Shown: positions 4,068 through 18,979 of the stretch, piece after piece
Layout of the letters: every line of letters begins with the position of its first letter
Position numbering within the stretch: the first letter of the stretch is position 1
Assembly (NCBI RefSeq): GCF_005885605.1
Contig: NZ_SZVP01000001.1
Coordinates: 496,001-560,000, forward strand
Length of the DNA: 64,000 bases
Source: Colwellia ponticola
GTDB lineage: Bacteria > Pseudomonadota > Gammaproteobacteria > Enterobacterales > Alteromonadaceae
Direction: 5' to 3'
Made by a program: the position numbers and the translations under genes
The notes under the pieces: generated by a model
Told to the model about the DNA's origin: nothing
What the model saw: the letters and a program-made list of their open reading frames with translations, nothing else
The model's database searches: none

Positions 4068-7000
4068 CTACACGGCTGCCTTATTGATTACTTGTTTTAT
4101 ACTACTTAATAACAATTGCTTGGTGATGGGCTTAGGTATGTGTAAGTTCATTCCTGCTGCTAAGCTTTGCTGTTTATCTTCATCTCTAGCATGGGCTGTC
4201 ATCGCTATAATAGGTAAATCCTGATACTGACTTTGTGCTCTAATTTTTTTCGTTGCGCTAAGCCCATCCATAATAGGCATCTGAATATCCATTAACACCA
4301 CATCAAATTGTTGTTCTGCTAAAATAGCTAACGCGCTTTGGCCATTATCAGCAATGCTCACCTTCGCCTGTAAGTTTAATAATAGCTCTTTGGCTACTAA
4401 TTGATTAACCAAGTTATCCTCCACTAATAACACGGTAACACCTTGTAGGTTTTCCTCATTACTGGTTAATAACAAGATGTTGTCACTCTTTACGGCAATT
4501 TTATCGGTTAATTTTTCTTGGTAACGTGTATTATCAGTACTTCCTATCTGACTATTTTTTTGTGGTGTCATCTCATTTACTGTTTCATCTTTATTCACTA
4601 AAGCTTGAGATATTTGGTCAAGCGTATAACGAAACAGCGGTTTATCAATTAATAAGTAGGTGCTAGGTAACTTCGCTAAATCGATACTAGTTTTATTACT
4701 CAACGCAGGTTGGCATAAGCAAAGTAATGTAAACTCAGCTAAGGGCATCATTGAGCCGTTATGATGTTGTTGCTTAACAAAGTCAGCTTCTTCAATCAGT
4801 AATACGCTATTGGCAACTACCTCTATTTGACATAAAGCTTCCACATTGGGAATGTCATGTAATACCCAGCCCATCTTGGTAATACTATTAATAAAGCTTA
4901 TCGAAAGTTCTTGATTAATTGCATAAATAGTTACGTTAGTGACCAACGGCTTAGCTAACTCTGCGGGTAAATTAACTAAACGTGAATCGCTTGCCGGTTG
5001 TTCTGAAGGTAAAACCAATTGCAGTGGCAAAACAAAACTAAGTTCACTGCCCTGTCCTAATTGACTAGTAAGGTTGATTTCTCCTCCCAACAATTTAATA
5101 ATTTGCTGACAAATAGATAACCCTAAACCAGAACCGCCATATTTACGGGTCATTGACTCATCAGCTTGACTAAAGGCAGTAAATAAATGTCCTTGATTAT
5201 CACTAGCGATACCAATTCCGGTATCAATAACGCGAAAGCGCACCTTAGCGACATTATCTTTTATTAAAGGCGCATCAATAAGTAAACTAATTTGACCTTG
5301 CTCAGTAAATTTAATGGCATTATTTAATAAATTAGCAAGCACTTGTATTAAACGCATTTCATCACAAATAACATTACTAGGAACATCGGGACTTATATCA
5401 ACAATGACTTTAACGCGCTGGTGATCAACATTACCAATATTAAGCTTTAAGGCTTTATTAATAATAATCGGTAAGTTAACAGGCTCTTGTCTAACAATCA
5501 TTTTACCCGCTTCAATTTTAGATAAGTCTAAAAGCTCATCAACAAGGTGTAATAACGTCGATGAGGCACTTTGTGCATTAACTAAGTAATGTTGTTGACG
5601 GGGATCTAAAGTAGTATGCGCTAATAAGTCCATCATGCCTTGCATCGCATTAATAGGGGTTCTTACTTCATGACTCATATTAGCCAGAAATTGAAGCTTA
5701 ACTCGGTTAGCATACTCGGCTTGATCTTTGGCTTTTTTCAGGGCTGATTGCGTTGCTTGTTGTAGCGTAACATCATGAAAAATACTGATAGTACCAAGAA
5801 TATTACCTTGGTCATCGGTAAATTGATTACAGAAACCTTGATATATATAATCACCCGCTTTAATTAATGCTTGCTGCGGATAAATATCATTATTATCAGC
5901 ATTTAAACGGTTAACTTCTTCTGCTAAAGGTGCGGGCATAAAAATAACAGATTTACTGCCTAACATTTGCTCGACTGAATGCTGAGTTAAACGCTCAAAC
6001 GCTTTGTTACAGCCCATCAATAAGCCCTTTGGATCATTAAATACAATTAATTCAGGAATAGCATTCATCACAGAAAGCAATAAAGCATAGTCACGTTGAT
6101 GCTTGGCACTACTCTCTTGCAACGCTTGTGTTTTTTCAATAACACGACTGTCTAATACATCATTTTGCTCAGTGAGTTGTAGTAGCAAACTTCGGTTTTG
6201 AGTAAATATATCTTCAACTACTTGAAACCAATGTAACCAGTCTGCCGTAGGTGTTACCTTACCGGGATCCCCCTCCGCGCAGTATTGAATATGATTAATA
6301 AACTCTGTAGTGGGCTTAATAAAGGTACGCTTTGTCATAGTATTTATTAGCATAAGAAATGCTAATAAACCGATAAATAACATGACGAAAACAAACATAA
6401 AATCACTGTACTGCGGTGCTGAAAAATTCTCATAGCGTTGATACTTTAACAAGGTCCAATCATTAATCGCCAACACTTGCTTTTCAATAAGCCAATCACC
6501 TAAATGTTCACTGTCACCTACTTTAGCCAGGGCTTGGGCATTAAGCCCTTGTAAGGATTTAGGTAACAGATCTTGCCAAGAGGCACGGTAGCTTAATGAT
6601 TCTTTTCCTCGGCGTTTTGAAAGAAGGATATCATTATTATTATTATATAAAAGTAACCCTTGTTCATTGGAGTCTAACTCTGGCAAATTAGCATGCAAGC
6701 GCGATAAATTAATATCAATCACGACCGAGCCTAGCAGCTTATTTTGATGAAAAACACCGGTACCTAATGAGGCATTCATACCACTACCTGCTGCATCAAG
6801 GTAGGGAGGTGACCACAATACACGATTATCTTTAACTGTTAATGACTGCATCATTTGATTATGAGGTCTAGCTAAGGTTTTTTTATTAAACTGCCATATT
6901 TCACGGTCAACCCAAGGGTAAATACTCACAAAATTATCAAAGGAAATATAATAAAACCACGTGGCTTCTTTGAGAATGTTTTGTGCGGCAACAAATGCCG

Positions 7001-7436
7001 GCGTTAGTGCATTCGCCATAGCAATTTCTTGTTTTTTCAGTGTATCAAACTGACTTATTTCCCCTAAACCAGTAATGTTACTGCTTAAGCGTTTTCCTTG
7101 CTTAATAACATCATGTAGCGGTTTATTTAAATAAAACAACTCACCTTGTTGTGATAAACCAGGCATAGGAATATTTATTTCGTTAGGATGTTTGAGAATA
7201 TACTCAGCAAACGCTTGTATCCCAACAACGGCTTGAACACTTTGCTCTAAAATATTATTAAGTTGTTGAGCCTCTTGCTTTAGCTCAAGTAAGCTTTGCT
7301 GTTTGTGCTGTGAAATTTGGTTGAAATATCGAAGTGAGGCAGCAGAAAAAGCAACCAAAATAATAACAATAAATGCCACAACAATAGTGATGTTATAGCG
7401 TCTAAAGACTGTATTGATGCCCGTTTGGTGATGCAC
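4068..7436 (-). CDS. Hybrid sensor histidine kinase
   Basis: This is a membrane-bound hybrid kinase of 1122 residues. Visible domains in order are TM1 (about 15-37), a large periplasmic sensor (38-345) of the double-Cache type by its WSPPYLDAAGSG and GSVVIDINLSRL segments, and TM2 (346-367). A short cytoplasmic linker follows, then a PAS domain (about 455-560), HisKA with His589 (NMSHEVRTP) and HATPase_c with N-box NLLNNAIKF, DTGIGI at 738-743 and GGSGLGLS at 767-774. The C-terminal receiver starts near 999 with phospho-acceptor Asp1050 (LMDIQMPIMDG). Residues about 822-935 look like a decayed receiver. No response-regulator gene is adjacent, so partner and signal are unknown. It is a single-gene unit. 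Confidence 0.92.
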   Translation of the reverse strand: MHHQTGINTVFRRYNITIVVAFIVIILVAFSAASLRYFNQISQHKQQSLLELKQEAQQLNNILEQSVQAVVGIQAFAEYILKHPNEINIPMPGLSQQGELFYLNKPLHDVIKQGKRLSSNITGLGEISQFDTLKKQEIAMANALTPAFVAAQNILKEATWFYYISFDNFVSIYPWVDREIWQFNKKTLARPHNQMMQSLTVKDNRVLWSPPYLDAAGSGMNASLGTGVFHQNKLLGSVVIDINLSRLHANLPELDSNEQGLLLYNNNNDILLSKRRGKESLSYRASWQDLLPKSLQGLNAQALAKVGDSEHLGDWLIEKQVLAINDWTLLKYQRYENFSAPQYSDFMFVFVMLFIGLLAFLMLINTMTKRTFIKPTTEFINHIQYCAEGDPGKVTPTADWLHWFQVVEDIFTQNRSLLLQLTEQNDVLDSRVIEKTQALQESSAKHQRDYALLLSVMNAIPELIVFNDPKGLLMGCNKAFERLTQHSVEQMLGSKSVIFMPAPLAEEVNRLNADNNDIYPQQALIKAGDYIYQGFCNQFTDDQGNILGTISIFHDVTLQQATQSALKKAKDQAEYANRVKLQFLANMSHEVRTPINAMQGMMDLLAHTTLDPRQQHYLVNAQSASSTLLHLVDELLDLSKIEAGKMIVRQEPVNLPIIINKALKLNIGNVDHQRVKVIVDISPDVPSNVICDEMRLIQVLANLLNNAIKFTEQGQISLLIDAPLIKDNVAKVRFRVIDTGIGIASDNQGHLFTAFSQADESMTRKYGGSGLGLSICQQIIKLLGGEINLTSQLGQGSELSFVLPLQLVLPSEQPASDSRLVNLPAELAKPLVTNVTIYAINQELSISFINSITKMGWVLHDIPNVEALCQIEVVANSVLLIEEADFVKQQHHNGSMMPLAEFTLLCLCQPALSNKTSIDLAKLPSTYLLIDKPLFRYTLDQISQALVNKDETVNEMTPQKNSQIGSTDNTRYQEKLTDKIAVKSDNILLLTSNEENLQGVTVLLVEDNLVNQLVAKELLLNLQAKVSIADNGQSALAILAEQQFDVVLMDIQMPIMDGLSATKKIRAQSQYQDLPIIAMTAHARDEDKQQSLAAGMNLHIPKPITKQLLLSSIKQVINKAAV

Positions 7437-7780: not shown

Positions 7781-8116
7781 TTATTTTTGCGTACTAAAGT
7801 AGGCGGCAATATCGGCAATATCTTGATCACTTAAATTAGCCGCTTGTGGTGTCATCATCGCTGACATTCCGCCAGCTCTTTCACCTGAACGGTATGCTTT
7901 GAGAGCACTTTCAAGGTAGTTAGCATGTTGCCCGGCTAAATTAGGATAAATATTAATCGCTGAATGGCCAGTGGCGCCATGACAAGCAGCACACATGGCT
8001 ACTTTTTTTGCACCAGCTTTAGCATCTCCTGTTGTCGCTGCATGAGCAACTCCTGTTTGCATCATTAAAAACGTTAACGACATAAAAGTAAGTGCAGTTA
8101 TCGATTGCTTTATCAT
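7781..8116 (-). CDS. Periplasmic class I cytochrome c (c553/c4-like)
   Basis: This is a small secreted monohaem cytochrome. Residues 1-26 form a Sec signal peptide ending AHA, followed by a mature domain of about 85 residues. The haem-binding motif CAACH is at 42-46. YPNLAGQHANYL and the C-terminal SDQDIADIAAYFS are typical of the c553/c4 class. The sixth ligand is a methionine among M84, M87 and M88. The gene is divergent from the molybdoenzyme operon at 8566, so it may carry electrons to or from that periplasmic enzyme, as cytochromes c do for dimethylsulfide and ethylbenzene dehydrogenases. That pairing is inferred from position only. Confidence 0.9.
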   Translation of the reverse strand: MIKQSITALTFMSLTFLMMQTGVAHAATTGDAKAGAKKVAMCAACHGATGHSAINIYPNLAGQHANYLESALKAYRSGERAGGMSAMMTPQAANLSDQDIADIAAYFSTQK

Positions 8117-8565
8117 TATCTTGGTTCCTTTTTCTTTTTCAACATAAATTAATATTCATGAAATTAATAATTTTTAATATTTATTAATTGTTAAAAAATT
8201 AATTTTACAAAATTGACTTTACAAAAATAAGCTATTACACCTATTAACATTAGTATGTCAATAAATTCATTGCAAGCATTATTAACTGCACTTGATTTGG
8301 CATCTTAATTGGTATGTTATTGTCTATATTTTCCATATGTTTTACATTATTTTCACATGTAAACCCGACAAGCTGTTATAGACTCATAAAGATGCTAATA
8401 GCGTGCATAACCGTATTTGTTAGTGATACTTATTTTACATTAATTAAAAAAATTTGACGGCAGGTGCACAATCACTCATTGGTAATTTATCGTTATTGTC
8501 TACCCTTTATTAACTATATTTCAGTTATCGGTTAGTCGACGACGAACGTTGATTAGGAGAATGGT
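8117..8565. promoter_or_regulatory. Divergent control region, cytochrome c / molybdoenzyme operon
   Basis: This 449-bp AT-rich gap separates two divergent units and must hold both promoters. An inverted repeat TTTACAT-N9-ATGTAAA at 8341-8363 could be an operator, but in DNA this AT-rich it may be chance. No FNR-type TTGATNNNNATCAA site was found. A strong ribosome-binding site, TAGGAG, precedes the ATG at 8566. No open frame or stable hairpin was noted. Confidence 0.4.
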
Positions 8566-11349
8566 ATGGAAATGGGGAAAATAAAGCGCCGCGACTTTCT
8601 TAAAGGCTTAGGCGTTGCTGGCACAGGTGTTATGCTTAGCAATAAAAGTTGGAGCCTCAATCGCTTAGAACCTATAGGCAATACCTTAGCTAAAGAATAT
8701 CCTTATCGAGGCTGGGAAGATTTATACCGTAATGAATGGACCTGGGACTCAATAGGTCATGCCGCTCATTGTATCAACTGTATGGGCAACTGCGCGTGGA
8801 ATGTCTACGTTAAAGACGGCATTGTTATTCGTGAAGAACAAATAGCTAAATACCCGCAAGTTAATGCCAAGGTTCCTGATGCTAATCCTAGAGGTTGTCA
8901 AAAAGGTGCTATTCACTCTACCTCAATGTATGAAGCAGACCGCTTACGCTATCCTTTAAAGCGTGCTGGCGAACGTGGTGAAGGTAAGTGGCAACGTATC
9001 TCTTGGGAACAAGCCACCGAAGAAATTGCCGATAAGATCATCGATATTTTTGTTAAATACGGCCCAGGTAAACTCAAAACACACCAAGGCTCTGGTAACC
9101 AAACCATGGTCCGCCAATCCGGTCCAAACCGATTTGCTTCTCTCGTTGGTGGTATTCAGCTTGATGGCTTTACCGTCGTGGGTGATTTAAATACTGGCGC
9201 GCATTTAGCCTACGGTAACCCACTAGAGAGCTTTACTTCTGACGCTTGGTTTGATGCCGATTATATAATGCTAGGTATGATTAACCCCAATGCGACTCGT
9301 ATTCCTGACGCCCATTATATATGGGAAGCTAAATATAATGGTGCGCGCATTACCAGTACAGCCCCAGATTATAACCCTAGCTCTATTCACACTGACTTAT
9401 GGATGCCTATTAAACAAGGCTCAGATCCGTTTTTAGCCATGTCCTTTGTACACGTTATTATTGAAGAAAAACTCTTTAAACCTGCGTTTATGAAAGAACA
9501 AACTGACTTGCCCATATTAGTACGCCTTGATAATGGCAAAATGTTGCGTGAAGCCGATTTAGAAAAAGGCGGATCAGAAGAAGTGTTTTATCATTGGGAT
9601 TTAGTCACTAAAAAAGCGGTAAAAGTCAAAGGTTCAATGGGCGATAAAACTAAAACCTTAAAGCTAGGCGATGTTGATCCCGCGATTGAAGGAACCTTTA
9701 CGGTTAAAGGTATCAAGGTCACTACCGTTTTTGAACAAGTTAAAAAAGAAGCAGCAAAATACGCCCCAGAAAAGACCCAGGCAGACACTAATATACACCC
9801 TGATATTGTCCGCCAAGAAGTGCGCCACTTAGCTAAGGCTAAAAAAGCTATTATCATGCTCGGCTACATTACCTCAAGTTATTCTAACTGTATTTACATT
9901 GGCTGGGGCTATGCGCTTGCGCTAGCACTTACTGGTCATGGTGGTCGCACTGGTGGCTTAGATACCTCTTGGGTGGTTTGGAACCATCCATTGTGGGGGG
10001 AACTCGCTAACTTTGAATACAAAAAATCAGCTCGCTATGAAGCCGGTGGTTTAGGTGAGTTTATACGCGGCGGTATGATGCAAGGCGCTCGAACCGTGTT
10101 CGATAACGCTAAACTCAAAAAACGCGTCGGCTTCGATCTCGATGAAATGGAAGACATGATGAACGAGTCAATGGATAAGGGGTGGATGCCTTATTACGGT
10201 GAAGTTAAAGGCATGATTTCAATTGCTGATAATACCTTTCGCCGTAATAAAATGTCAAAAACATACCGTGAAGAACATCTTCGCCAAGCCAGTGAGTTAT
10301 TTGTTGATATTAACGTACGTATGGACTCAACCGCTGAGTGGGCTGATTATGTACTGCCTGCAGCAAGCCATTACGAAGCTTGGGATATACGTACCCAGGG
10401 CTATCATCGTTTTGCCAATATATTTACTCGCTCGGTCGAGCCAGTTGGCGAATCAAAGCCTGACTGGGATATCATGGTGTTATTGACTAAAAAAATTCAA
10501 GAACGTGCTATTGCCCGAGGTATTGGCCCAATACCTGATGGTGATGTTACTCGTGATTTACATACCATTTATGATGACTTTACTAAAAACGGCACACTAA
10601 ATACTGATTATGATGTTGCTAAACATATTGTAGAAAACTCACCGGAGTTCGGCGGTGTCAGCTTAGAAGATGCAGGAAAGCGCGGCTTTATTGTGATGAA
10701 CGAGCATGCGGGTTTAAACCAACCGTTAAAACCAGACGAGCCCTATAATCCCTTTACTGCACAAACAGATGGTAAAAAGCCTTACGAAACACTCACTGGA
10801 CGTATTACTTTTTATTGTGATCATCCGCGCTTTGAAAAACTCAACTCAATGGTGCCAACGGCTCGCTCTCATGCTGGTGCAGGTGCATCTAACTACCCGC
10901 TTGAGTTTTACTCACCACATGCGCGTTGGGGTATTCACTCAAACTGGCGAAGCAATAAATACCTATTAAGGTTGCAGCGCGGTGAGCCTAATATTTATAT
11001 TAATCCTAAATTAGCAGCACAACGGGGAATTAAAGATGGCGATCGCGTGCGCATGTTCAATGCTGTCGGTGACTTTTTTGCGCAAGCGAAATTTTATCCT
11101 AGTATTCCTGTTAATTCAATTATGATGGAACATGGCTGGGAGCCACACCAATATATTCAACGTAAAAACATGAATATGTCACATGCTACTTTCTTACAAC
11201 CGCTAGAGTTAGTTGGTGGGTGGGGACACCTTAAGTTTATTTACGCTAAGTGGAACGCCAATCAAGTGATTCATGAAAATAGCTACGATGTCGAATTAGC
11301 TAAACTTGAAGATATTACCGACCCGAGATTGCTCAAGGGGAATAAATAA
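8566..11349 (+). CDS. Type II DMSO-reductase-family molybdoenzyme, catalytic alpha subunit
   Basis: The 927-residue protein is the catalytic subunit of a periplasmic bis-molybdopterin-guanine-dinucleotide enzyme. It resembles the NarG/EbdA/DdhA/SerA/ClrA branch. A Tat signal (KRRDFLKGLG, residues 7-16) begins it. The N-terminal Fe-S ligands are H65 or H68, C69, C72, C76 and C111, the histidine being a hallmark of type II enzymes. D207 in VGDLNTG aligns with the molybdenum-ligating aspartate of NarG. PDAHYIWEAKYNGARI and PSSIHTDLWMPIKQGSDPF fit NarG-type cofactor segments. The stop overlaps the beta-subunit start by one base. Dimethylsulfide, hydrocarbons, selenate or chlorate are all possible substrates. 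Sequence reading alone cannot choose. Confidence 0.93.
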   Translation: MEMGKIKRRDFLKGLGVAGTGVMLSNKSWSLNRLEPIGNTLAKEYPYRGWEDLYRNEWTWDSIGHAAHCINCMGNCAWNVYVKDGIVIREEQIAKYPQVNAKVPDANPRGCQKGAIHSTSMYEADRLRYPLKRAGERGEGKWQRISWEQATEEIADKIIDIFVKYGPGKLKTHQGSGNQTMVRQSGPNRFASLVGGIQLDGFTVVGDLNTGAHLAYGNPLESFTSDAWFDADYIMLGMINPNATRIPDAHYIWEAKYNGARITSTAPDYNPSSIHTDLWMPIKQGSDPFLAMSFVHVIIEEKLFKPAFMKEQTDLPILVRLDNGKMLREADLEKGGSEEVFYHWDLVTKKAVKVKGSMGDKTKTLKLGDVDPAIEGTFTVKGIKVTTVFEQVKKEAAKYAPEKTQADTNIHPDIVRQEVRHLAKAKKAIIMLGYITSSYSNCIYIGWGYALALALTGHGGRTGGLDTSWVVWNHPLWGELANFEYKKSARYEAGGLGEFIRGGMMQGARTVFDNAKLKKRVGFDLDEMEDMMNESMDKGWMPYYGEVKGMISIADNTFRRNKMSKTYREEHLRQASELFVDINVRMDSTAEWADYVLPAASHYEAWDIRTQGYHRFANIFTRSVEPVGESKPDWDIMVLLTKKIQERAIARGIGPIPDGDVTRDLHTIYDDFTKNGTLNTDYDVAKHIVENSPEFGGVSLEDAGKRGFIVMNEHAGLNQPLKPDEPYNPFTAQTDGKKPYETLTGRITFYCDHPRFEKLNSMVPTARSHAGAGASNYPLEFYSPHARWGIHSNWRSNKYLLRLQRGEPNIYINPKLAAQRGIKDGDRVRMFNAVGDFFAQAKFYPSIPVNSIMMEHGWEPHQYIQRKNMNMSHATFLQPLELVGGWGHLKFIYAKWNANQVIHENSYDVELAKLEDITDPRLLKGNK

Positions 11350-12329
11350 TGACTGTTAAACGCCAACTCAGCATGGTTTTAGATTTAAATAAATGTATAG
11401 GCTGTCAAACCTGTACTGCCGCTTGTAAATTGATGTGGACTAACCGTAACGGTCGCGAGCATATGTACTGGAACAACGTCGAGACCATGCCCGGTAAAGG
11501 TTACCCAAAAGACTATCAACAAATGGGTGGTGGTTTTGATAAAGATGGTGCGCTACGTTTAGGTCGACAGCCCAGCCAAGAAGATTATGGCATTCCGTGG
11601 GAATACAACTATGAAGAAGCCCTAATGACTGGCACTGACCCATGGTTACGCCCTAATGTTAAACCTACCTGGGGCGCTAACTGGGATGAAGACGAAGGTG
11701 AAGGTGATTATCCTAATAGTTACTATTTCTATCTTCCGCGTTTATGTAACCACTGTGCAAACCCTGCCTGTTTGGCCGCTTGTTCACGCAATGCTATTTA
11801 CAAGCGCCAAGAAGACGGCATTGTACTGGTTGACCAAGAGCGCTGTCGTGGCTATCGCTATTGTGTTAATGCTTGCCCATACAAAAAAATATATTTTAAT
11901 GAACAAATATCTAAATCAGAAAAATGTATTTTCTGCTATCCGCGCATTGAAAAAGGTTTACCTACCGCCTGTGCACAACAATGTGTTGGCCGTATTCGCT
12001 GGATTGGTTATCGTGATGATGAAGCAGGACCGATTCATTTATTAGTAGAGAAATATAAGGTGGCGCTACCGTTGCATGCTGAATGGGGCACACAACCTAA
12101 TGTATTTTATGTACCGCCCTCCTCCCCACCTAAAATTGGTCCTAATGGTGAAGAATTAGACGAGTCACGTATACCACTGTCTTATCTGGAGAGCTTATTT
12201 GGTCCACGCGTTGGCGAGGTATTAGAAACATTGGCTGAAGCTCGCCAGTTAAAAGCTGACGGTAAAGAAAGTGAATTAATGGATACTTTAATTGGCTTTA
12301 AGCACGCTGAAATGTTCAAACTGAGCTAA
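11349..12329 (+). CDS. Type II molybdoenzyme Fe-S beta subunit
   Basis: This 326-residue electron-transfer subunit resembles DdhB, SerB, EbdB and NarH. It should pass electrons between the alpha-subunit cluster and the gamma-subunit haem. Four cysteine groups are visible: C16-C19-C22-C26; C133-C136-C141-C145; C166-x-x-Y169-x-x-C172-x3-C176; and C193-C196-C208-C212. The tyrosine at 169 replaces one cysteine, as the tryptophan does in NarH, which predicts one [3Fe-4S] and three [4Fe-4S] clusters. It has no signal peptide, so export by hitch-hiking with the Tat-bearing alpha subunit is expected. The start codon overlaps the alpha stop (TAATG), implying coupled translation. Confidence 0.94.
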   Translation: MTVKRQLSMVLDLNKCIGCQTCTAACKLMWTNRNGREHMYWNNVETMPGKGYPKDYQQMGGGFDKDGALRLGRQPSQEDYGIPWEYNYEEALMTGTDPWLRPNVKPTWGANWDEDEGEGDYPNSYYFYLPRLCNHCANPACLAACSRNAIYKRQEDGIVLVDQERCRGYRYCVNACPYKKIYFNEQISKSEKCIFCYPRIEKGLPTACAQQCVGRIRWIGYRDDEAGPIHLLVEKYKVALPLHAEWGTQPNVFYVPPSSPPKIGPNGEELDESRIPLSYLESLFGPRVGEVLETLAEARQLKADGKESELMDTLIGFKHAEMFKLS

Positions 12330-12339
12330 GGATGGCAAA

Positions 12340-13083
12340 ATGATTGATATTATTTCACCTTTAACGCGACAACGTGAAGCGCAGGTTACTGAACCTCGCG
12401 AAACAATTTATCACCTTAGTGCTGTTACGTTTGCTTATCCACTCAAAGAAACTCAACAAGCACTTGAAGAAGGTCGTTTACAAGGTTCTTTTAGTCATGC
12501 TTGGGTAGCTTCAGGTGAACAACCTTGGCCAGAGCTTAACGCAAGCAAAGACTTACATAGTTTAGAAGTTGGCTACATGGCTACCTTTATCCATGGTCAT
12601 CGCGGAAAACCCAGAGTGCCTTTAGTAGCGAGCGCCTATCCACAATTAATTGCAGGACAAACACCTGGCGCTTTTATGCTCAACGTACAGGCCTTTTATA
12701 GTCACTTTGGTTTAAAAGCCGCGGTTGACGATGAAGGGATAAAAGATGAGCCAGACCATGTAGTGACCATGCTAGAGTTTTGTGCACTACTATGTCATTT
12801 AGAACTTAAAGCATTAGTCGGTGGTCGCGATACCAGTACTTTTCGTCGTGCCCAGCGTGACTTTTTAGCGCGATACCTAATTCCTATGCTACGCATACTT
12901 AGAGGGACTTATGCTAAAGAGAGTCACTACGAATTAGATGCTACTTTAGCGTACCTAATTACAGTATTACCCGATTGGGCGAGCGCTCAACATCGCGCCT
13001 TAGAAGATCAAGTAGGTCCAAGCTCAAAATCAACTACTGAAAATACTTCAGTGGCCTCTGCCAATCAGTCTATGTGGACTTGA
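12340..13083 (+). CDS. TorD/DmsD-family assembly chaperone (delta)
   Basis: This is a 247-residue soluble protein of the TorD/NarJ-type redox-enzyme maturation family. Such proteins hold the catalytic subunit for cofactor insertion before Tat export and are not part of the mature enzyme. The characteristic DEPDH motif is at 136-140, followed by a helical stretch VVTMLEFCALLCHLE. The N terminus (YHLSAVTFAYPL) also fits the family. It lies 10 bp after the beta gene and before the gamma gene, the A-B-D-C order of the ddh, ser and clr operons. The C-terminal 20 residues are a serine/threonine-rich tail without recognisable function. Confidence 0.88.
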   Translation: MIDIISPLTRQREAQVTEPRETIYHLSAVTFAYPLKETQQALEEGRLQGSFSHAWVASGEQPWPELNASKDLHSLEVGYMATFIHGHRGKPRVPLVASAYPQLIAGQTPGAFMLNVQAFYSHFGLKAAVDDEGIKDEPDHVVTMLEFCALLCHLELKALVGGRDTSTFRRAQRDFLARYLIPMLRILRGTYAKESHYELDATLAYLITVLPDWASAQHRALEDQVGPSSKSTTENTSVASANQSMWT

Positions 13084-13110
13084 AAGGTCACACTAAGTGA
13101 GGAATAAGTA

Positions 13111-13911
13111 ATGAACGTTAATCTTATTGTAAAAAGTTTTTTAACGCTAGCGTTAGCGGTGAATATCAATTATGCCTGGGCAGAAGATAACGAATTAAAC
13201 CCTAACATTACCGAGGTAAAACCAGGAGATACGGTAAAAGTATCGCGCATCCCAGGGACTATTTACTTACGTACCCAAAACGATCCTGATGACCTTATTT
13301 GGGATCGCTTACCTATGTATCATACTAATTTACTGACTGCGCCACCGGTGCATCAATCAGTTAAGTTGCGCTTTGATGAAGGAGCTACTCTCAGTAAGCG
13401 TATTTACTTTCAAGTCGCGCAATCTAGTGAGCGCTTTTATATCCGTTTGCGCTGGAAAGACGCCACACAAGATCGTACGACGACCGTTGATGCTTTTCGT
13501 GATGGCGTAGCAGTACAATTTGCGATTAATAACGCTGACACTTCTTACATGATGGGATCTGGTCCCAAAAATCCAGTCAACATTTGGTATTGGCGTGCAG
13601 ATACCGATAAGGTTGCTGATTTAGCGGCAGGTGGCTTTGGTAGTACCACGACCTTACCTGTGCAAGCGGTAAGTGGTGCTAGCTCGTATATACTTGATCA
13701 GATCCCTGAAGATAATGCTTGGCATGTAGTCATGTCTCGACCTTTAAAAGTTAACGGTAAGTATGATGTTAACTTTCAACGTCCAATTGTGCCAATGGGC
13801 TTTGCCGTATGGCAAGGCAGCGATGAAGAGCGAGACGGTAATAAACGCGTAACCCATACTTGGATCAAGTTAGATACTGGCTATACTACAGCGAGCGTTT
13901 CTAAAAAATAG
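13111..13911 (+). CDS. Haem-b-binding gamma subunit (EbdC/DdhC-like)
   Basis: This is a 266-residue exported protein of the ethylbenzene-dehydrogenase gamma family, the haem b carrier that links the beta subunit to a soluble periplasmic electron carrier. A Sec signal peptide covers residues 1-24 (ending AWA). Family marks are the segment YMMGSGPKNPVNIWYW (146-161) and the C-terminal FAVWQGSDEERDGNKRVTHTW. In EbdC the haem iron is held by a methionine and a lysine. By position M147 or M148 and K245 are the likely counterparts. The ribosome-binding site GAGGAA precedes the ATG. The presence of this subunit argues for a soluble periplasmic complex, not a quinol-linked membrane one. Confidence 0.88.
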   Translation: MNVNLIVKSFLTLALAVNINYAWAEDNELNPNITEVKPGDTVKVSRIPGTIYLRTQNDPDDLIWDRLPMYHTNLLTAPPVHQSVKLRFDEGATLSKRIYFQVAQSSERFYIRLRWKDATQDRTTTVDAFRDGVAVQFAINNADTSYMMGSGPKNPVNIWYWRADTDKVADLAAGGFGSTTTLPVQAVSGASSYILDQIPEDNAWHVVMSRPLKVNGKYDVNFQRPIVPMGFAVWQGSDEERDGNKRVTHTWIKLDTGYTTASVSKK

Positions 13912-13932
13912 TTTCTAAAATAAGGATACAGC

Positions 13933-15039
13933 ATGTCGGTTTCTCATTATCCAGAGCGCGATCCATTAGCCTTAACACCAGCAGATTGTGGCCGAGGCCA
14001 CGCCTGTCAATTTTGCCCTGAAGAAGGGGAATGCAAATTAGACAAAGGTCATCATGAAAAGCGCTTGATTGAAGCGAGGCTAGCTGACATTGGCCAAATT
14101 ATTATGGTAATGGCTAATAAAGGTGGCGTAGGGAAAAGTACCGTCTCGGCCAACGTTGCCGCTGGACTTGCTGCGCAAGATTATCATGTTGGTGTCGCTG
14201 ATGCTGATATTCATGGTCCAAATCAAAGCCGATTTTTTGGTTTTGTTGGTGAGCGCGTACGCTTAAGCAATAAAGGTTTACCGCCACAGGCCTTTACTTA
14301 TAAAGGTATTAAACATCCTGTTAAGGTAGGCTCATTAGCTTTTATGATGCAAAGTGACGACACGCCTATTGTTTGGCGCGATGCTTACAAGCATGACTTT
14401 ATGCATCATTTAATAGGATCTTTTGACTGGGGACCGCTAGATTTTTTAATCATAGATATGCCGCCGGGCACAGGGAATGAGCTGATCACCTTAGCTGATA
14501 TGCTAGAAGGTCATGACGTAGCCGCTTTATTGGCGACAACACCACAAGAAGTTGCCCTGATGGACAGTCTAAAAGCCGTACGGTTTTGCCAAGATCGCAA
14601 ATTACCAATCATTGGTGTTGTTGAAAACATGGCAGGGGTAACTTGCCCGCATTGTCGCGGTGAATTTCATGTATTTCCACGTTCTCACTTAGCCGCAGCA
14701 CTTAGCGCAGCAGGTGTTGAGTCACTCACACAAATTCCGTTGTCATTGGCATTATCTAGTGGTTCAGATACCGGTGTTCCAGTCGTATTATCAGCCCCTA
14801 AAGGCCCGGAAGCACTTGCCTTTGCGCCAGCGATAGCGGCTTGTCGTGCTCATGCTGATTCAGTATTTGCTGAAGCAGCGGCGCAATCTTTACACGACTT
14901 AACGCAAGCTGGACTTGATTCACCTGAGTTAACACAAGCACTGAACGCTGTTCCTCCTAAGCAGCGTAAGGCTTTACGCGAACAACTCAATACTATGCTA
15001 GGTGCACCAGCAGGCACTGATGTCAAACCAGATCATTAA
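13933..15039 (+). CDS. Mrp/ApbC-like P-loop ATPase with N-terminal cysteine motif
   Basis: This is a 368-residue Mrp/NBP35-type ATPase, a family of Fe-S cluster carriers. The deviant Walker A motif NKGGVGKST is at 62-70, ADADIHGPNQS follows, DMPPGTG is the switch region, and a CPHC pair sits at 238-241 where Mrp proteins bind their cluster. Unusually, residues 1-40 carry four cysteines (C19, C25, C28, C34; C-x5-C-x2-C-x5-C), a possible second metal site. A C-terminal tail of about 60 residues is charged and unassigned. It begins 21 bp after the gamma gene behind AAGGA. It may load Fe-S clusters into the operon's enzyme. That role is inference. Confidence 0.85.
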   Translation: MSVSHYPERDPLALTPADCGRGHACQFCPEEGECKLDKGHHEKRLIEARLADIGQIIMVMANKGGVGKSTVSANVAAGLAAQDYHVGVADADIHGPNQSRFFGFVGERVRLSNKGLPPQAFTYKGIKHPVKVGSLAFMMQSDDTPIVWRDAYKHDFMHHLIGSFDWGPLDFLIIDMPPGTGNELITLADMLEGHDVAALLATTPQEVALMDSLKAVRFCQDRKLPIIGVVENMAGVTCPHCRGEFHVFPRSHLAAALSAAGVESLTQIPLSLALSSGSDTGVPVVLSAPKGPEALAFAPAIAACRAHADSVFAEAAAQSLHDLTQAGLDSPELTQALNAVPPKQRKALREQLNTMLGAPAGTDVKPDH

Positions 15040-15143
15040 TAAGAAAAATCAAGTTCTTATGGCAAATATGTGATAACCAAATGAGTTAGTGTGCAGCAGC
15101 GCTAACGATAATCATCCCGCTATTTTTTAATGAGTACACATCC

Positions 15144-17006
15144 ATGACAGAACCTCTTACTAAAGATAGACGCCGTTTTTTCAATCAATTTCTAAACATA
15201 GATAAAAATGTACCTAATAAAGCCCCGTGGCACAGAGTACCCGAGGTAGGAGCAGGAGACGGCGATGTGCTGTGGTCTGGGTGGGCGGGTAACGGTGAGT
15301 TATTTGTTGTGGGGGATGAAGGTATGGTATTACATTACACAGGCACTGCTGATCAAGCAGGTGATTTGTGGCAACAAATGACCTTACCTGTACGCCAGCC
15401 GCTACATGGTATTTGGGGTGCCTCTGCTAATAATCTATACGCTGTCGGCTGGATGGGTACACTGCTTCATTACGATGGTCAGCAATGGCATCACCTTAGC
15501 GGTGGTAAAATAGATGAAAAAACCGGTAAATTTCAAGCCTGCCAAGAAAACACCCCCTTATTTGCTATTGACGGCAGCGCTAAAGGCGAAGCATGGGCAG
15601 TAGGCGACGACGGCGTTATTTTACATTTTGATGGTAAAAAGTGGCAATTAGAACAAAGTCCGACCAGTATTAATTTACGTGCAGTTGCCTGCGCCGAAGA
15701 TCAAACGGTATACGCCATTGGTGGTGAAGGCACTGTATTACAGCGTAATACTAACGGACAATGGTTACAGCTTGAGTGTCAGCTCAGTTCAGGATTTCAA
15801 GCTATGCTTATTATGCCTGATGGTAGTCTCTTACTAGGTGGCGGTCGTTATTTTATTGATCAAGGCGGCTTTCGTGGTGAGTTAGTCCATTATAAGGACG
15901 GCGAATTTCATGCGCTTGATTTTGAGCAATCGATGCCACGCATAAGAGCACTGAAATCTTATAAAGACGGCGTATTGATTGTCGGTGACCAAGGACATTT
16001 ATATTACTTAAACGGTTTACGCTTAGATAAGCTAGAAAGTAATAGTCATCATGATTTAATGGACATCATTGTACTACCTACCGGAGAAGCGATAGTGGTT
16101 GGTGACTTTGGCACTATTATGACAGCGGCCGAAGATTTCACTAAAGCCCTAGCGCCACCACCTAAAGCAGTTGAAGTAAGCCCTTGGCAAGCAATGGAAA
16201 CACAAAATACCCGTCAACTTTGGCAGGTAAGTGAAGGCGTTAACGGTAATTGCTACGCATGTGGTGAAGCGGGTACTGTTTTGCGCTTAACTGATTTAAC
16301 TAATGATTGTTGGGAAACACTACCGCCACCCAGTGATTTAGCCGTACATTGTGTTTGGGATAGTGGCAATGGTTTGTTTGCCGCCGGTCAACTGGGTCGT
16401 ATCTATCGCTTTGGTGGACAAGAATGGACACTACATTTTGATTTGCACTTAGATATTACTATTCTCGCCATGTGGGGTAGCAGCCCGAACTCTATTTATG
16501 CCGTAGGTGACGAAGGTTTAATACTACATTTTGATGGTTTGAACTGGCAACGCATGGCAAGTGGTACTAAATCGGCATTATATGGTCTGTGGGCGTGGGA
16601 TAATGAACATTTGCTCGCCCCAGGTGATTTTGGTCTTATACTTCGCTATAACGGGACAGAATGGGCAGAGTTTAACGTGGGTACTGAAAACTTTCTTTAT
16701 GGTGCTTGGGGTGACAGTCTCACTAATATTTATAGCGTTGGCTTATCAGGTACCTTGGCACATTTTAATGGTCAACGCTGGCAACAAATGGCCACTCGCC
16801 TTAGAGAAGATCTTCTTTCAATATCAGGCTCTGAAAAAGCCGGCGCTTATGCTGTTGGTACGCGTGGCTGTGTGCTTCGTTTAGACCACGGACAATGGCT
16901 TAGAGAAGAAAGTGGTAGCAGTGCAGGTTTACGTTCGGTATGTGCCACCCAAAGCGGCGTTGTTTACGCAGTAGGGGATAAAGGCACGATATTACAAAGA
17001 AAATAA
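15144..17006 (+). CDS. Repeat protein, probable double beta-propeller
   Basis: This is a 620-residue protein built almost wholly of repeats of about 40-50 residues with the core xxAVGdxGxxLHfdGxxW. I count about thirteen cores, near residues 56, 100, 152, 190, 279, 318, 371, 412, 453, 492, 531, 570 and 609. This suggests two six- or seven-bladed propellers, similar to YCF48/BNR-like repeat proteins. The N terminus contains RRRFFNQFL but no hydrophobic segment follows, so it is not a normal Tat or Sec substrate and appears cytoplasmic. It starts 104 bp after the ATPase gene with a weak ribosome-binding site. YCF48-type proteins act in complex assembly, so a scaffold role is possible but unproven. 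Confidence 0.75.
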   Translation: MTEPLTKDRRRFFNQFLNIDKNVPNKAPWHRVPEVGAGDGDVLWSGWAGNGELFVVGDEGMVLHYTGTADQAGDLWQQMTLPVRQPLHGIWGASANNLYAVGWMGTLLHYDGQQWHHLSGGKIDEKTGKFQACQENTPLFAIDGSAKGEAWAVGDDGVILHFDGKKWQLEQSPTSINLRAVACAEDQTVYAIGGEGTVLQRNTNGQWLQLECQLSSGFQAMLIMPDGSLLLGGGRYFIDQGGFRGELVHYKDGEFHALDFEQSMPRIRALKSYKDGVLIVGDQGHLYYLNGLRLDKLESNSHHDLMDIIVLPTGEAIVVGDFGTIMTAAEDFTKALAPPPKAVEVSPWQAMETQNTRQLWQVSEGVNGNCYACGEAGTVLRLTDLTNDCWETLPPPSDLAVHCVWDSGNGLFAAGQLGRIYRFGGQEWTLHFDLHLDITILAMWGSSPNSIYAVGDEGLILHFDGLNWQRMASGTKSALYGLWAWDNEHLLAPGDFGLILRYNGTEWAEFNVGTENFLYGAWGDSLTNIYSVGLSGTLAHFNGQRWQQMATRLREDLLSISGSEKAGAYAVGTRGCVLRLDHGQWLREESGSSAGLRSVCATQSGVVYAVGDKGTILQRK

Positions 17007-17593: not shown

Positions 17594-18979
17594 TTAAAAG
17601 TTCTTTTCAGTAAATTCAGCTAATGAGCTTCGTTCAACTTCATCAAATATTAGCACACTACCCTTTTCATAATGTCGATAAATATTAACGGCAGCACTAG
17701 CGCCTGAGCTAGTTGCAGTGACAAACCTATCATCAATTTGCGCAAGGTTACCCAGTACAATAGTACGACAATTTTTACCGCCTCGACTGAGCATGCCTTT
17801 CATCTGTGCCCTAGTCATGTTTTGCGCTTCATCAATAATCAATACCGCATCATCAATAGAGCGTCCTCTAAAATACGCCATCGAGGTAAACTCAATATTG
17901 GCCTTATCAATAATATGCTCAACGGTAGCACGAGTACTTTTTTCATCAGCACCATCACTTGAGTGCATTGATATTAAAGCATCAGTAACACCTGCCAATA
18001 GCGGTAGAGATTTCTCGGTTAAATCACCGGGTAGAAACCCAGGGTCGTCATCCATAAAATCTCTGCTGCGCACCACCACTATTTTTTTGTATTGCTTGGT
18101 TTCAATCACTTGATGTAAACCACTAGCAACCGCTAAAAATGTTTTACCCGATCCCGCTGGGCCAAGTATGATATTTAAATCAAGCTCAGGGTCGGTTAAT
18201 TGATCTAGAGCGACGGCTTGTCGAGGATTTTTAGGTAGTATGCCCCAAATTTTTTCCTGTTTTCTTTGTAGTAACGTGGTGAAAACATGCTCTTCATTCA
18301 CTTCTTTTATCTTGCCAATATGACCCACTTCGTCATACCAATACATATTGACTTGCGCTTCATCATTAAAAACATCACGATTAAACCGATATAACTTACC
18401 ACTCATGGCAAAATCTTTTTCGTCTTCACAGCGATCAAATAAATCGCCAGTAAATGCTTGCACGCCGGTATATAACAAGTCAATATCGCTGACTTGGTTA
18501 TCTACTAATACGTCTTCAGCATCAACCCCTATAGTACGCGCTTTTAAACGCATATTAATATCGCGACTGACGATAGTGACATTTTTTTGTAACTGGTTTT
18601 GTAAATGCAAGGCATAGTTAATAATGCGATTATCGGCATCGCTGCCAATGGCGTGCTTTAATTCTTTGGCAAAATCTAACTGGGTATCAATACCAATAAA
18701 TAGCTTGCCACGTTTGGCTGTTTCAGTACAAGGTAGCTGAATACCCTGCTCCATTTCTTCACTAGAATGACCATTGATAATATCTTCAAGCATACGAATA
18801 ACAGCACGAGCATCTTGGCTAACACTTTTATCTAGCCGCTCTTTTAAATTATCTAACTCTTCTAATACCGTTAAACAAATATAAATATCATCACGGTAGG
18901 CCAACAAACTCTTAGGATCATGGACTAACGCTGAGGTATCAAATACTCTTGGATTTCTATTGTCATTAACGTTTTTCAT
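17594..18979 (-). CDS. PIN-PhoH family protein (PhoH2-like ATPase/RNase)
   Basis: This is a 461-residue fusion of an N-terminal PIN nuclease domain (about 10-155) and a C-terminal PhoH ATPase domain (about 250-461). PIN acidic residues include D14 (FDTSALVHD), the E40-E41 pair, D116 and D140. The Walker A motif GPAGSGKT is at 273-280 and the Walker B DEAQ at 383-386, with VLGNLAQID as a further PhoH motif. PhoH2 proteins of this layout have been shown to unwind and cleave RNA in other bacteria. The physiological role here is unknown. The gene stands alone between a repeat element and a small hypothetical gene on the same strand. Confidence 0.92.
   Translation of the reverse strand: MKNVNDNRNPRVFDTSALVHDPKSLLAYRDDIYICLTVLEELDNLKERLDKSVSQDARAVIRMLEDIINGHSSEEMEQGIQLPCTETAKRGKLFIGIDTQLDFAKELKHAIGSDADNRIINYALHLQNQLQKNVTIVSRDINMRLKARTIGVDAEDVLVDNQVSDIDLLYTGVQAFTGDLFDRCEDEKDFAMSGKLYRFNRDVFNDEAQVNMYWYDEVGHIGKIKEVNEEHVFTTLLQRKQEKIWGILPKNPRQAVALDQLTDPELDLNIILGPAGSGKTFLAVASGLHQVIETKQYKKIVVVRSRDFMDDDPGFLPGDLTEKSLPLLAGVTDALISMHSSDGADEKSTRATVEHIIDKANIEFTSMAYFRGRSIDDAVLIIDEAQNMTRAQMKGMLSRGGKNCRTIVLGNLAQIDDRFVTATSSGASAAVNIYRHYEKGSVLIFDEVERSSLAEFTEKNF

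Follow-up and report, generated by a model that had tools for sequence, protein, structure and literature searches.

A six-gene operon of Colwellia ponticola encoding a molybdoenzyme of the dimethylsulfide dehydrogenase family, an Mrp-like ATPase and a double-propeller protein that probably help to build it

Described relatives

The operon analysed here lies in a 64,000-nucleotide stretch of the Colwellia ponticola genome (hereafter the window). Its best known relative encodes the dimethylsulfide (DMS) dehydrogenase DdhABC(D) of Rhodovulum sulfidophilum, the sole such enzyme found in that genome. The two share the same clade, 69% alpha identity and the same six-gene order A-B-D-C-Mrp-propeller. 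They differ in the pocket, where DdhA of R. sulfidophilum has T, I and D in place of Q174, G201 and V204 of the window. The branch that includes the window (the window branch) also differs from R. sulfidophilum by a linked cytochrome c and by lacking the pair of histidine kinase and response regulator genes linked to the enzyme on the DMS dehydrogenase (DDH) side.

A second relative is the chlorate reductase locus of Stutzerimonas chloritidismutans AW-1, whose alpha subunit is 85% identical to that of the window and nested in the window branch. The genes for B, D, C, Mrp and propeller are present as in the window and lie on a further contig, the end of which overlaps the first (99.8%). Unlike the window, AW-1 has a chlorite dismutase gene (cld) next to the enzyme, a changed pocket and, between the alpha and cytochrome c genes, an ORF resembling a transposase. 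The ClrABDC chlorate reductase of Ideonella dechloratans resembles the window enzyme in its type II set of alpha, beta, delta and gamma genes and in their order, but its alpha subunit is only 45% identical and belongs to another clade, and its neighbours include neither an Mrp nor a propeller gene.

Gene content of the operon

All six ORFs are carried by the + strand, as the initial annotation had described. The first encodes the catalytic Mo-bisMGD subunit alpha of the DdhA family (8566..11349, 927 aa; NCBIfam TIGR03479, 1223 bits for a cut-off of 985). It is followed by the Fe-S electron-transfer subunit beta (11349..12329, 326 aa; TIGR03478, 574 bits for a cut-off of 481), the NarJ/TorD-type assembly chaperone delta (12340..13083, 247 aa) and the haem b subunit gamma (13111..13911, 266 aa; TIGR03477, 187 bits for a cut-off of 170). 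Delta matches Pfam PF02613 (3.3e-15) and TIGR03482 (E 1e-35), the latter under its cut-off (124 vs 152), and the alpha subunit does not reach that of the ethylbenzene dehydrogenase equivalog NF042978 (441 bits vs 2000). The gene order is that of ddhABDC.

The motifs reported earlier were all recovered. As read from the sequence, alpha carries an N-terminal Tat motif RRDFLKG and the type II Fe-S motif H68-x3-C72-x3-C76-x34-C111, and gamma a Sec-type signal. Asp207 of alpha is the equivalent of PcrA D170 in an alignment built on the AW-1 homologue. Met148 and Lys245 of gamma are invariant in 79/79 aligned gammas; from the haem ligands of EbDH, we take them to be haem ligands.

The last two genes encode an Mrp/NBP35-like P-loop ATPase (13933..15039, 368 aa) with an N-terminal Cx5CxxCx5C motif and a CPHC motif, and a double propeller (15144..17006, 620 aa) that bears an N-terminal twin-arginine motif without a clear hydrophobic core. 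In a check for recent acquisition by base composition, the operon had a G+C content of 43.9%, compared with 37.4 and 38.7% for its flanks, but its third-position G+C was only slightly raised (0.29–0.37 vs 0.29–0.32). No orthologous site was found for an empty-site comparison, the flanking PhoH being only 40–41% identical to the PhoH of the three genomes compared (G194, G006 and G031).

Placement of the alpha subunit and pocket residues

In the alpha tree, the window and R. sulfidophilum group in one 63-row clade (SH-aLRT 99), which is recovered in a second tree (23 rows, 100/99). Within it, the window branch includes 39 rows in the first tree (SH-aLRT 97) and 11 in the second (100/100); the window alpha falls outside the clade of Ideonella ClrA. 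In the first tree the Chromatiaceae join the DDH side (support 92), but in the second they are basal (99/98); all counts below include them in the DDH side. The trees were built without SerA, AhyA and CmdA; EbdA and PcrA entered the comparison through alignments alone.

Twenty-two diagnostic positions of the alpha alignment separate the window branch from the DDH side. Five of them are located within residues 171–204, ahead of the Mo-ligand Asp207 (post hoc P about 0.001, a value that overstates independence as the loci are related), and at 171, 174, 197, 201 and 204 the window differs from the DdhA-side pocket. The window enzyme is therefore assigned to the wider DDH family and not to the DMS dehydrogenases themselves. 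The window carries Q179, Q184 and G201, whereas K179, Y184 and H201 are common to AW-1 and its sister, which also have one residue inserted ahead of W472 that the window lacks. In the alignment, PcrA F164 falls at position 201 and PcrA W461 just after the AW-1 insert; both PcrA residues belong to the perchlorate reductase gate. The AW-1 pair is further set apart from the window branch by Y434F and S357T, the pocket being the site of some of the changes only.

The presence of R. sulfidophilum and S. chloritidismutans in the clade rules out an undescribed enzyme class. The suggestion of a distinct, undescribed branch holds in part: the branch is well supported and distinctive in both pocket residues and control signals, but the family is a described one, and the cld-linked enzyme of S. 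chloritidismutans falls inside the branch itself.

Linkage of the ATPase and propeller genes to the enzyme

The Mrp-like ATPase gene is found downstream of alpha in 51/53 and the propeller gene in 46/53 of the clade relatives with enough sequence, whereas both are absent (0/13 each) from the Ideonella-type chlorate reductase clade. This agrees with the proposal that the two genes are conserved as a module. The relatives come from a scan that required one of two peptide patterns and retained the best 80 of 115, and they are not a census; 10 of the 63 alphas were dropped for short flanks, and the window, L109 and L011 were left out. The relative G470 (alpha 57%, inside the clade) has neither gene within an 18 kb stretch, and its addition gives 51/54 and 46/54. 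Five loci (Rhodospira, three Chromatiaceae and a MAG grouping with them) keep the Mrp gene after alpha but have no propeller, that is, no tblastn match of at least 400 residues to the window protein, a threshold that a divergent propeller could escape. Two of these five genomes were searched whole and harbour none. A search starting from the propeller yielded matches at E 1e-20 in 4/369 genomes of the class, full length only in the window's own, which is too few for a linkage count.

Oceanimonas carries, beside a complete set, a second one made up of alpha, beta and gamma, with no delta, Mrp or propeller gene. In Oceanisphaera, a second copy beside a complete set is followed by an apparent deletion remnant of Mrp and propeller. 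These second copies suggest that the delta, Mrp and propeller genes can work in trans.

The initial annotation had taken the two genes as the possible mark of an undescribed enzyme, which is not supported, since R. sulfidophilum, the reference DMS dehydrogenase host, has the identical gene order. It had also asked whether alpha would fall in a characterised clade with the same downstream genes already described: alpha does stand beside described enzymes, but a description of the two genes was not found in the portions of the literature searched. The ATPase and the propeller accompany the enzyme in most of its family, the best known member included, and probably contribute to its assembly.

The Mrp-like ATPase and the double propeller

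The ATPase matches the NUBPL/Mrp-type family PF10609 (1.2e-69), and its closest solved structures are CFD1 and Mrp-type carriers. CPxC and Walker A are both present in 60/60 aligned rows and the N-terminal Cys motif in 59/60, which places the protein among the Mrp/NBP35/ApbC Fe-S carriers, with a predicted role in Fe-S transfer. It differs from these carriers in being bound to an operon and in scoring too low for the MrpORP and ApbC models of NCBIfam. As the C. ponticola genome encodes another Mrp elsewhere (34% identity), the operon protein is an extra paralogue.

The propeller has only weak matches, to propeller families, in Pfam and NCBIfam profile searches. Its AlphaFold model (mean pLDDT 89.9, pTM 0.56) suggests, by strand count, two times seven blades, a generic fold. 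The VIA-align alignment covered the second propeller (model residues 343–620) in nearly all rows, and no conclusion is drawn on the first domain. A motif RRx[FLI] occurs within the first 40 residues at 51/51 loci, the misframed L029 giving no evidence. Most propellers lack a clear export signal; as the highest hydropathy after RR (0.96) exceeds the lowest alpha value (0.8), Tat export stays possible for some of them. A weak profile kinship links the window propeller to Ycf48 (E 7e-4), which the part of the source available presents as a photosystem assembly factor (PMC10403576). The family cut-offs are missed by the window propeller (PF14870, 22.7 bits vs 27) and by its AW-1 homologue (NF010237, 25.6 vs 326), and Ycf48 is a single propeller, unlike that of the window, which is double and encoded in an operon with a molybdoenzyme.

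Upstream region and control

A small cytochrome c is encoded divergently (7781..8116, - strand) and is separated from alpha by an A+T-rich promoter region of 449 bases (8117..8565). It adjoins a hybrid histidine kinase (4068..7436, - strand) that is outside the DDH-side kinase family and is a possible regulator. Cytochrome c homologues are located at most 2.5 kb upstream of alpha at 17/34 window-branch alphas vs 0/22 on the DDH side. FNR-like boxes are found upstream in 22/37 vs 1/21; three loci, namely the window, L025 and L020 (short upstream), stand outside these counts, and adding the window and L025 gives 22/39. The DDH-side kinase/regulator pair was found at 0/36 window-branch loci, some with short flanks. 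The window branch thus differs from the DDH side in its control, having FNR-like boxes and cytochrome c and not the kinase/regulator pair. Before alpha in the window, a search allowing up to one mismatch found no FNR box, and the same holds for the near relatives from Marinospirillum and Denitrificimonas (L071 and L014). Promoter and terminator scans gave no clear excess over shuffles.

Proposed assembly and function

The following model appears reasonably probable as a whole. The operon would encode a soluble periplasmic molybdoenzyme of the DMS dehydrogenase family, together with three factors that assemble it in the cytoplasm. The chaperone delta would bind the Tat peptide of alpha and keep alpha-beta open. 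In the part of a review available, NarJ is described as binding the remnant Tat peptide of NarG and as required for the insertion of FS0 (PMC10609526). The Mrp-like ATPase would hand over [4Fe-4S] clusters, FS0 of the alpha subunit most likely among them, and the double propeller would act as a holder or platform at this delivery step. By its remnant twin-arginine motif, it might bind the same delta chaperone and so time release to Tat. Alpha-beta would then be exported folded via Tat and gamma via Sec, and the finished enzyme would exchange electrons through haem b with the divergently encoded cytochrome c. Alternatively, the last two genes might have another role, for instance in sensing or in partnership with the mature enzyme, and owe their linkage to horizontal transfer of the whole cluster as a block. 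The cluster is apparently mobile, as such an alpha occurs in 3/295 genomes of the order, the window's own included, and in relatives spread over alpha-, beta- and gammaproteobacteria; the generic propeller fold would also fit. This alternative is nevertheless improbable: Mrp and propeller, with or without delta, are the genes absent from tandem second copies, the ATPase has Fe-S-carrier motifs and most propellers lack a clear export signal.

Concerning the reaction, the FNR-like boxes, the linked cytochrome c and the cld-linked enzyme nested in the branch tip the balance slightly towards a terminal reductase used in anoxia. The absence of an FNR box from the window counts against such a reductase; so does the same module in R. 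sulfidophilum, the DMS-oxidising reference organism. A DMS dehydrogenase, which would work in the periplasm, oxidizing DMS to DMSO and passing the electrons to cytochrome c, would fit this missing box, the identity and gene order shared with R. sulfidophilum, the common 63-row clade and the many relatives that are marine or halophilic by name. The diagnostic positions, the frequency of FNR-like boxes in the branch and the lack of the kinase/regulator pair make it rather unlikely, for the window as for its branch, and less likely than a reductase. A chlorate reductase of the S. chloritidismutans kind is very unlikely: the 85% identity to the cld-adjoining AW-1 enzyme speaks for it, but the whole C. 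ponticola genome has no match to PF06778 (chlorite dismutase), the pocket differs from that of the AW-1 pair and chlorite dismutase occurs in only two, AW-1 and Tropicimonas, of the 38 carrier genomes searched, that of C. ponticola among them.

Significance

If right, these proposals name candidate proteins for a poorly understood step of molybdoenzyme maturation: the available part of the review mentioned above calls the exact function of NarJ in cofactor insertion unclear and does not mention ApbC (PMC10609526). One may tentatively picture the DMS-dehydrogenase-type enzymes as having a dedicated, undescribed assembly machine, in which Mrp would insert the alpha Fe-S cluster and the propeller would mimic a Tat substrate for the chaperone. 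The window branch would then consist of uncharacterised anaerobic reductases, mostly marine or halophilic, one lineage of which became a chlorate reductase via few pocket changes. The presumed chlorate reductase linked to cld is nested in this branch, the other members searched being without chlorite dismutase. Finally, taxa such as Sulfurovum, Bacteroidota and Chloroflexota are credited with 'ddhA' in surveys (PMC7039863, PMC13360808), and the Mrp and propeller pair could serve as a marker of true ddh-family genes.

The operon and its relatives

The six ORFs of the operon (8566–17006) lie on one strand (+), in the order and with the motifs described in the initial annotation. Alpha, beta and gamma score above the NCBIfam cut-offs for type II enzymes of the DMSO reductase family; the chaperone (delta) strongly matches its own NCBIfam family, yet stays below the cut-off. 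The closest PDB relatives of alpha are ethylbenzene dehydrogenase and the type II enzyme 4ydd, which we take to be the perchlorate reductase PcrA. Asp207 of alpha (numbering of the window protein) corresponds to Asp170 of 4ydd in an alignment made with the homologue from Stutzerimonas chloritidismutans AW-1, and Met148 and Lys245 of gamma are invariant in all 79 aligned gammas.

Scanning 84,980 species genomes for either of two peptide patterns gave 115 relatives, from which 77 loci were kept. In a tree of 83 alphas, the window protein belongs to a clade of 63 rows (SH-aLRT 99), apart from the 18 rows of Ideonella-type chlorate reductases (SH-aLRT 100). The 63-row clade contains the branch of the window and a side that includes the probable DMS dehydrogenase of Rhodovulum sulfidophilum (DDH side, with which Chromatiaceae are counted). 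A careful tree limited to 33 rows recovers the corresponding clade with 23 rows (support 100/99) and the window branch with 11 (100/100). In both trees, the closest kin of the window alpha come from Marinobacter, Marinospirillum, Denitrificimonas and Halomonas, not from its own order, where such an alpha is found in 3 of 295 genomes (the window's own and two Oceanimonas). The PhoH/PIN gene located downstream (17594–18979) is 41% identical to that of one same-genus genome, so this flank may also be non-orthologous. Tandem enzyme copies belonging to two sub-branches within the window branch occur in Oceanimonas (L009/L032), Oceanisphaera (L022) and a MAG (L061), the last locus being cut off. The Thiorhodococcus MAG cluster2_bin.20 carries one enzyme of each group (L038, L054), which means either that one cell has two functions or that the MAG was misbinned.

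The possibility that the operon represents a distinct, undescribed branch was not borne out, as Rhodovulum sulfidophilum carries the same six genes within the clade. Such an alpha is found in 2 of 16 Rhodovulum genomes. One of them belongs to R. sulfidophilum DSM 1374, as parts of two contigs match the plasmids of this strain at 100% identity; behind the single alpha of this genome (910 aa, 69% identity to the window alpha) come beta, delta, gamma, Mrp and propeller genes. R. sulfidophilum is the DMS dehydrogenase organism according to parts of PMC7039863 and PMC8520302, and the ratified sequence named in the latter comes from strain SH1. Being the sole candidate in the DSM 1374 genome, this locus is probably ddh.

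Conservation of the two additional genes

Linkage was counted for the 53 of the 63 alphas whose downstream sequence extends over 6.5 kb or more. Of these, 52 are followed by delta, 53 by gamma, 51 by the Mrp-like gene and 46 by the propeller gene, versus 0 of 13 for the last two in the Ideonella-type clade; the suggestion that they form a conserved module thus stands. Both alphas devoid of Mrp are extra copies adjoining a complete set: the one from Oceanimonas consists of alpha-beta-gamma without delta, Mrp or propeller, and the one from Oceanisphaera of alpha-beta-delta-gamma followed by sequence read as a fused remnant of Mrp and propeller. The other five alphas without propeller belong to Rhodospira, three Chromatiaceae and a MAG that clusters with these; a propeller is present in L054, a Chromatiaceae MAG. 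Within the clade, genome G470 (alpha 57% identical) lacks both genes over an 18 kb stretch, and its alpha-beta-gamma set (L144, 5223–9801) has no recognizable delta nearby. From these counts and losses, the module is conserved (Mrp better than the propeller), and the pattern of loss agrees with accessory genes able to serve both enzyme copies. No description of the two genes was found in the partially covered literature on these operons, and they are not claimed to be unpublished.

C19, C25, C28 and C34 of the Mrp-like protein are retained, along with the P-loop and CPxC, in each of the 27 sequences aligned. Among proteins of solved structure, it is closest to the Fe-S carrier CFD1 and to Mrp-type carriers. 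Another Mrp (34% identity) is encoded elsewhere in the genome. The N-terminal cysteine motif is found in 59 of 60 rows, the exception being a Haloferax protein. A type II operon of a Haloferax plasmid (L012, 5884–14684) carries alpha, beta and gamma followed by TorD, HEAT-repeat and Mrp-family ATPase genes; it thus resembles the window in having such an ATPase nearby but differs in its lack of N-terminal cysteines.

The predicted model of the propeller (mean pLDDT 89.9, below 50 at the N-terminus; pTM 0.56) shows two times seven blades by our own count. All 51 loci have RRx[FLI] within the 40 N-terminal residues, the misframed L029 having no value as proof. The maximum 15-residue mean hydropathy soon after RR ranges from -1.13 to 0.96 in propellers and reaches 0.8 or more (mean 1.24) in each of the 84 alphas. 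By these values, whose ranges overlap slightly, most propellers look like carriers of a Tat motif without hydrophobic core.

Divergence of the pocket and the AW-1 locus

At 22 positions, the window branch (37 rows, counting the window itself) and the DDH side (22 rows) each conserve a residue, but not the same one. Five of these positions lie within residues 171–204, directly before Asp207; since this cluster was noticed before testing, its P of about 0.001 is a guide only. Position 201 is G in 37/37 versus I in 22/22 rows, and position 204 is V in 35/37 versus D in 22/22.

The alpha of AW-1 (85% identical to that of the window) shares its contig with a cytochrome c gene and a chlorite dismutase gene (cld) whose product has a signal-like N-terminus; a transposase-like ORF lies between the alpha and cytochrome c genes. 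Beta, delta, gamma, Mrp and propeller are found on another contig, and 1641 bases at its end overlap with the first contig (L099, 10621–12261; L100, 1–1641). The identity of 99.8%, not 100%, fits either an assembly break within one locus or two alpha-beta near-copies. Apart from a same-gene fragment and a weak match, AW-1 yielded no second such type II alpha. AW-1 respires chlorate (part of PMC9320692), and from the linkage to cld we infer that its enzyme is a chlorate reductase. A cld match was found in 2 of the 38 carrier genomes searched, window's included: AW-1 and Tropicimonas. CAL, a Pseudomonas MAG forming a nested pair with AW-1 (support 100 in the 83-alpha tree), yielded no cld. Both share K179, Y184, H201, A204, T357 and F434 and carry one additional residue ahead of W472. 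In the window alpha, positions 179, 184 and 201 are Q, Q and G, and the insert is absent. Aligned with 4ydd, position 201 corresponds to F164 and the inserted residue to the position before W461; in PcrA, F164 and W461 form a gate.

Control signals

The two groups also differ in their surroundings. On the DDH side, genes for a histidine kinase (22/23 loci) and a response regulator (21/23) adjoin the operon; R. sulfidophilum, outside the clustering, was scored as missing, yet tblastn detects both. Genes of this type were found at 0 of 36 window-branch loci, some with short flanks. A homologue of the window's small cytochrome c lies at most 2.5 kb upstream of 17/34 window-branch and 0/22 DDH-side alphas. 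FNR-like boxes (at most one mismatch, within 450 bases upstream of alpha) occur in 22/37 regions of the window branch (background 0.034 per region) and 1/21 of the DDH side. They are found in Halomonas (8/13), Marinobacter (5/6), Oceanimonas (3/3), Oceanisphaera (2/2), a gammaproteobacterial MAG (2/2), Marinobacterium (1/2) and one Alcaligenaceae (1/1), and not in the single regions of Denitrificimonas, Marinospirillum, Vreelandella, Stutzerimonas, Pseudomonas, another Pseudomonadaceae, another Alcaligenaceae, a Thiorhodococcus MAG and another gammaproteobacterial MAG. In AW-1, the cytochrome c gene and the transposase-like ORF flank a one-mismatch box. The Ideonella-type clade has boxes in 6/18 regions. 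FNR control of the chlorate-respiration gene cld of Ideonella is reported in part of PMC7349173. The window itself has no such box within these 450 bases, which speaks against transferring the control of its branch to it as it stands.

Proposed maturation and function

By analogy with the remnant Tat peptide of NarG, which is bound by NarJ (part of PMC10609526), the following model is proposed. Delta would keep alpha-beta open while the Mrp-like ATPase would load Fe-S clusters; the propeller would serve as a platform and, through its RR, compete for delta. The finished alpha-beta would then be exported by Tat and gamma by Sec, and the enzyme would work together with cytochrome c. For the window branch, we favor a role as a reductase in anoxia, with an oxide or oxyanion other than chlorate as substrate. 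As the genome also encodes NapA-, TorA- and FdhF/YdeP-like enzymes, anaerobic respiration by this Colwellia is plausible.
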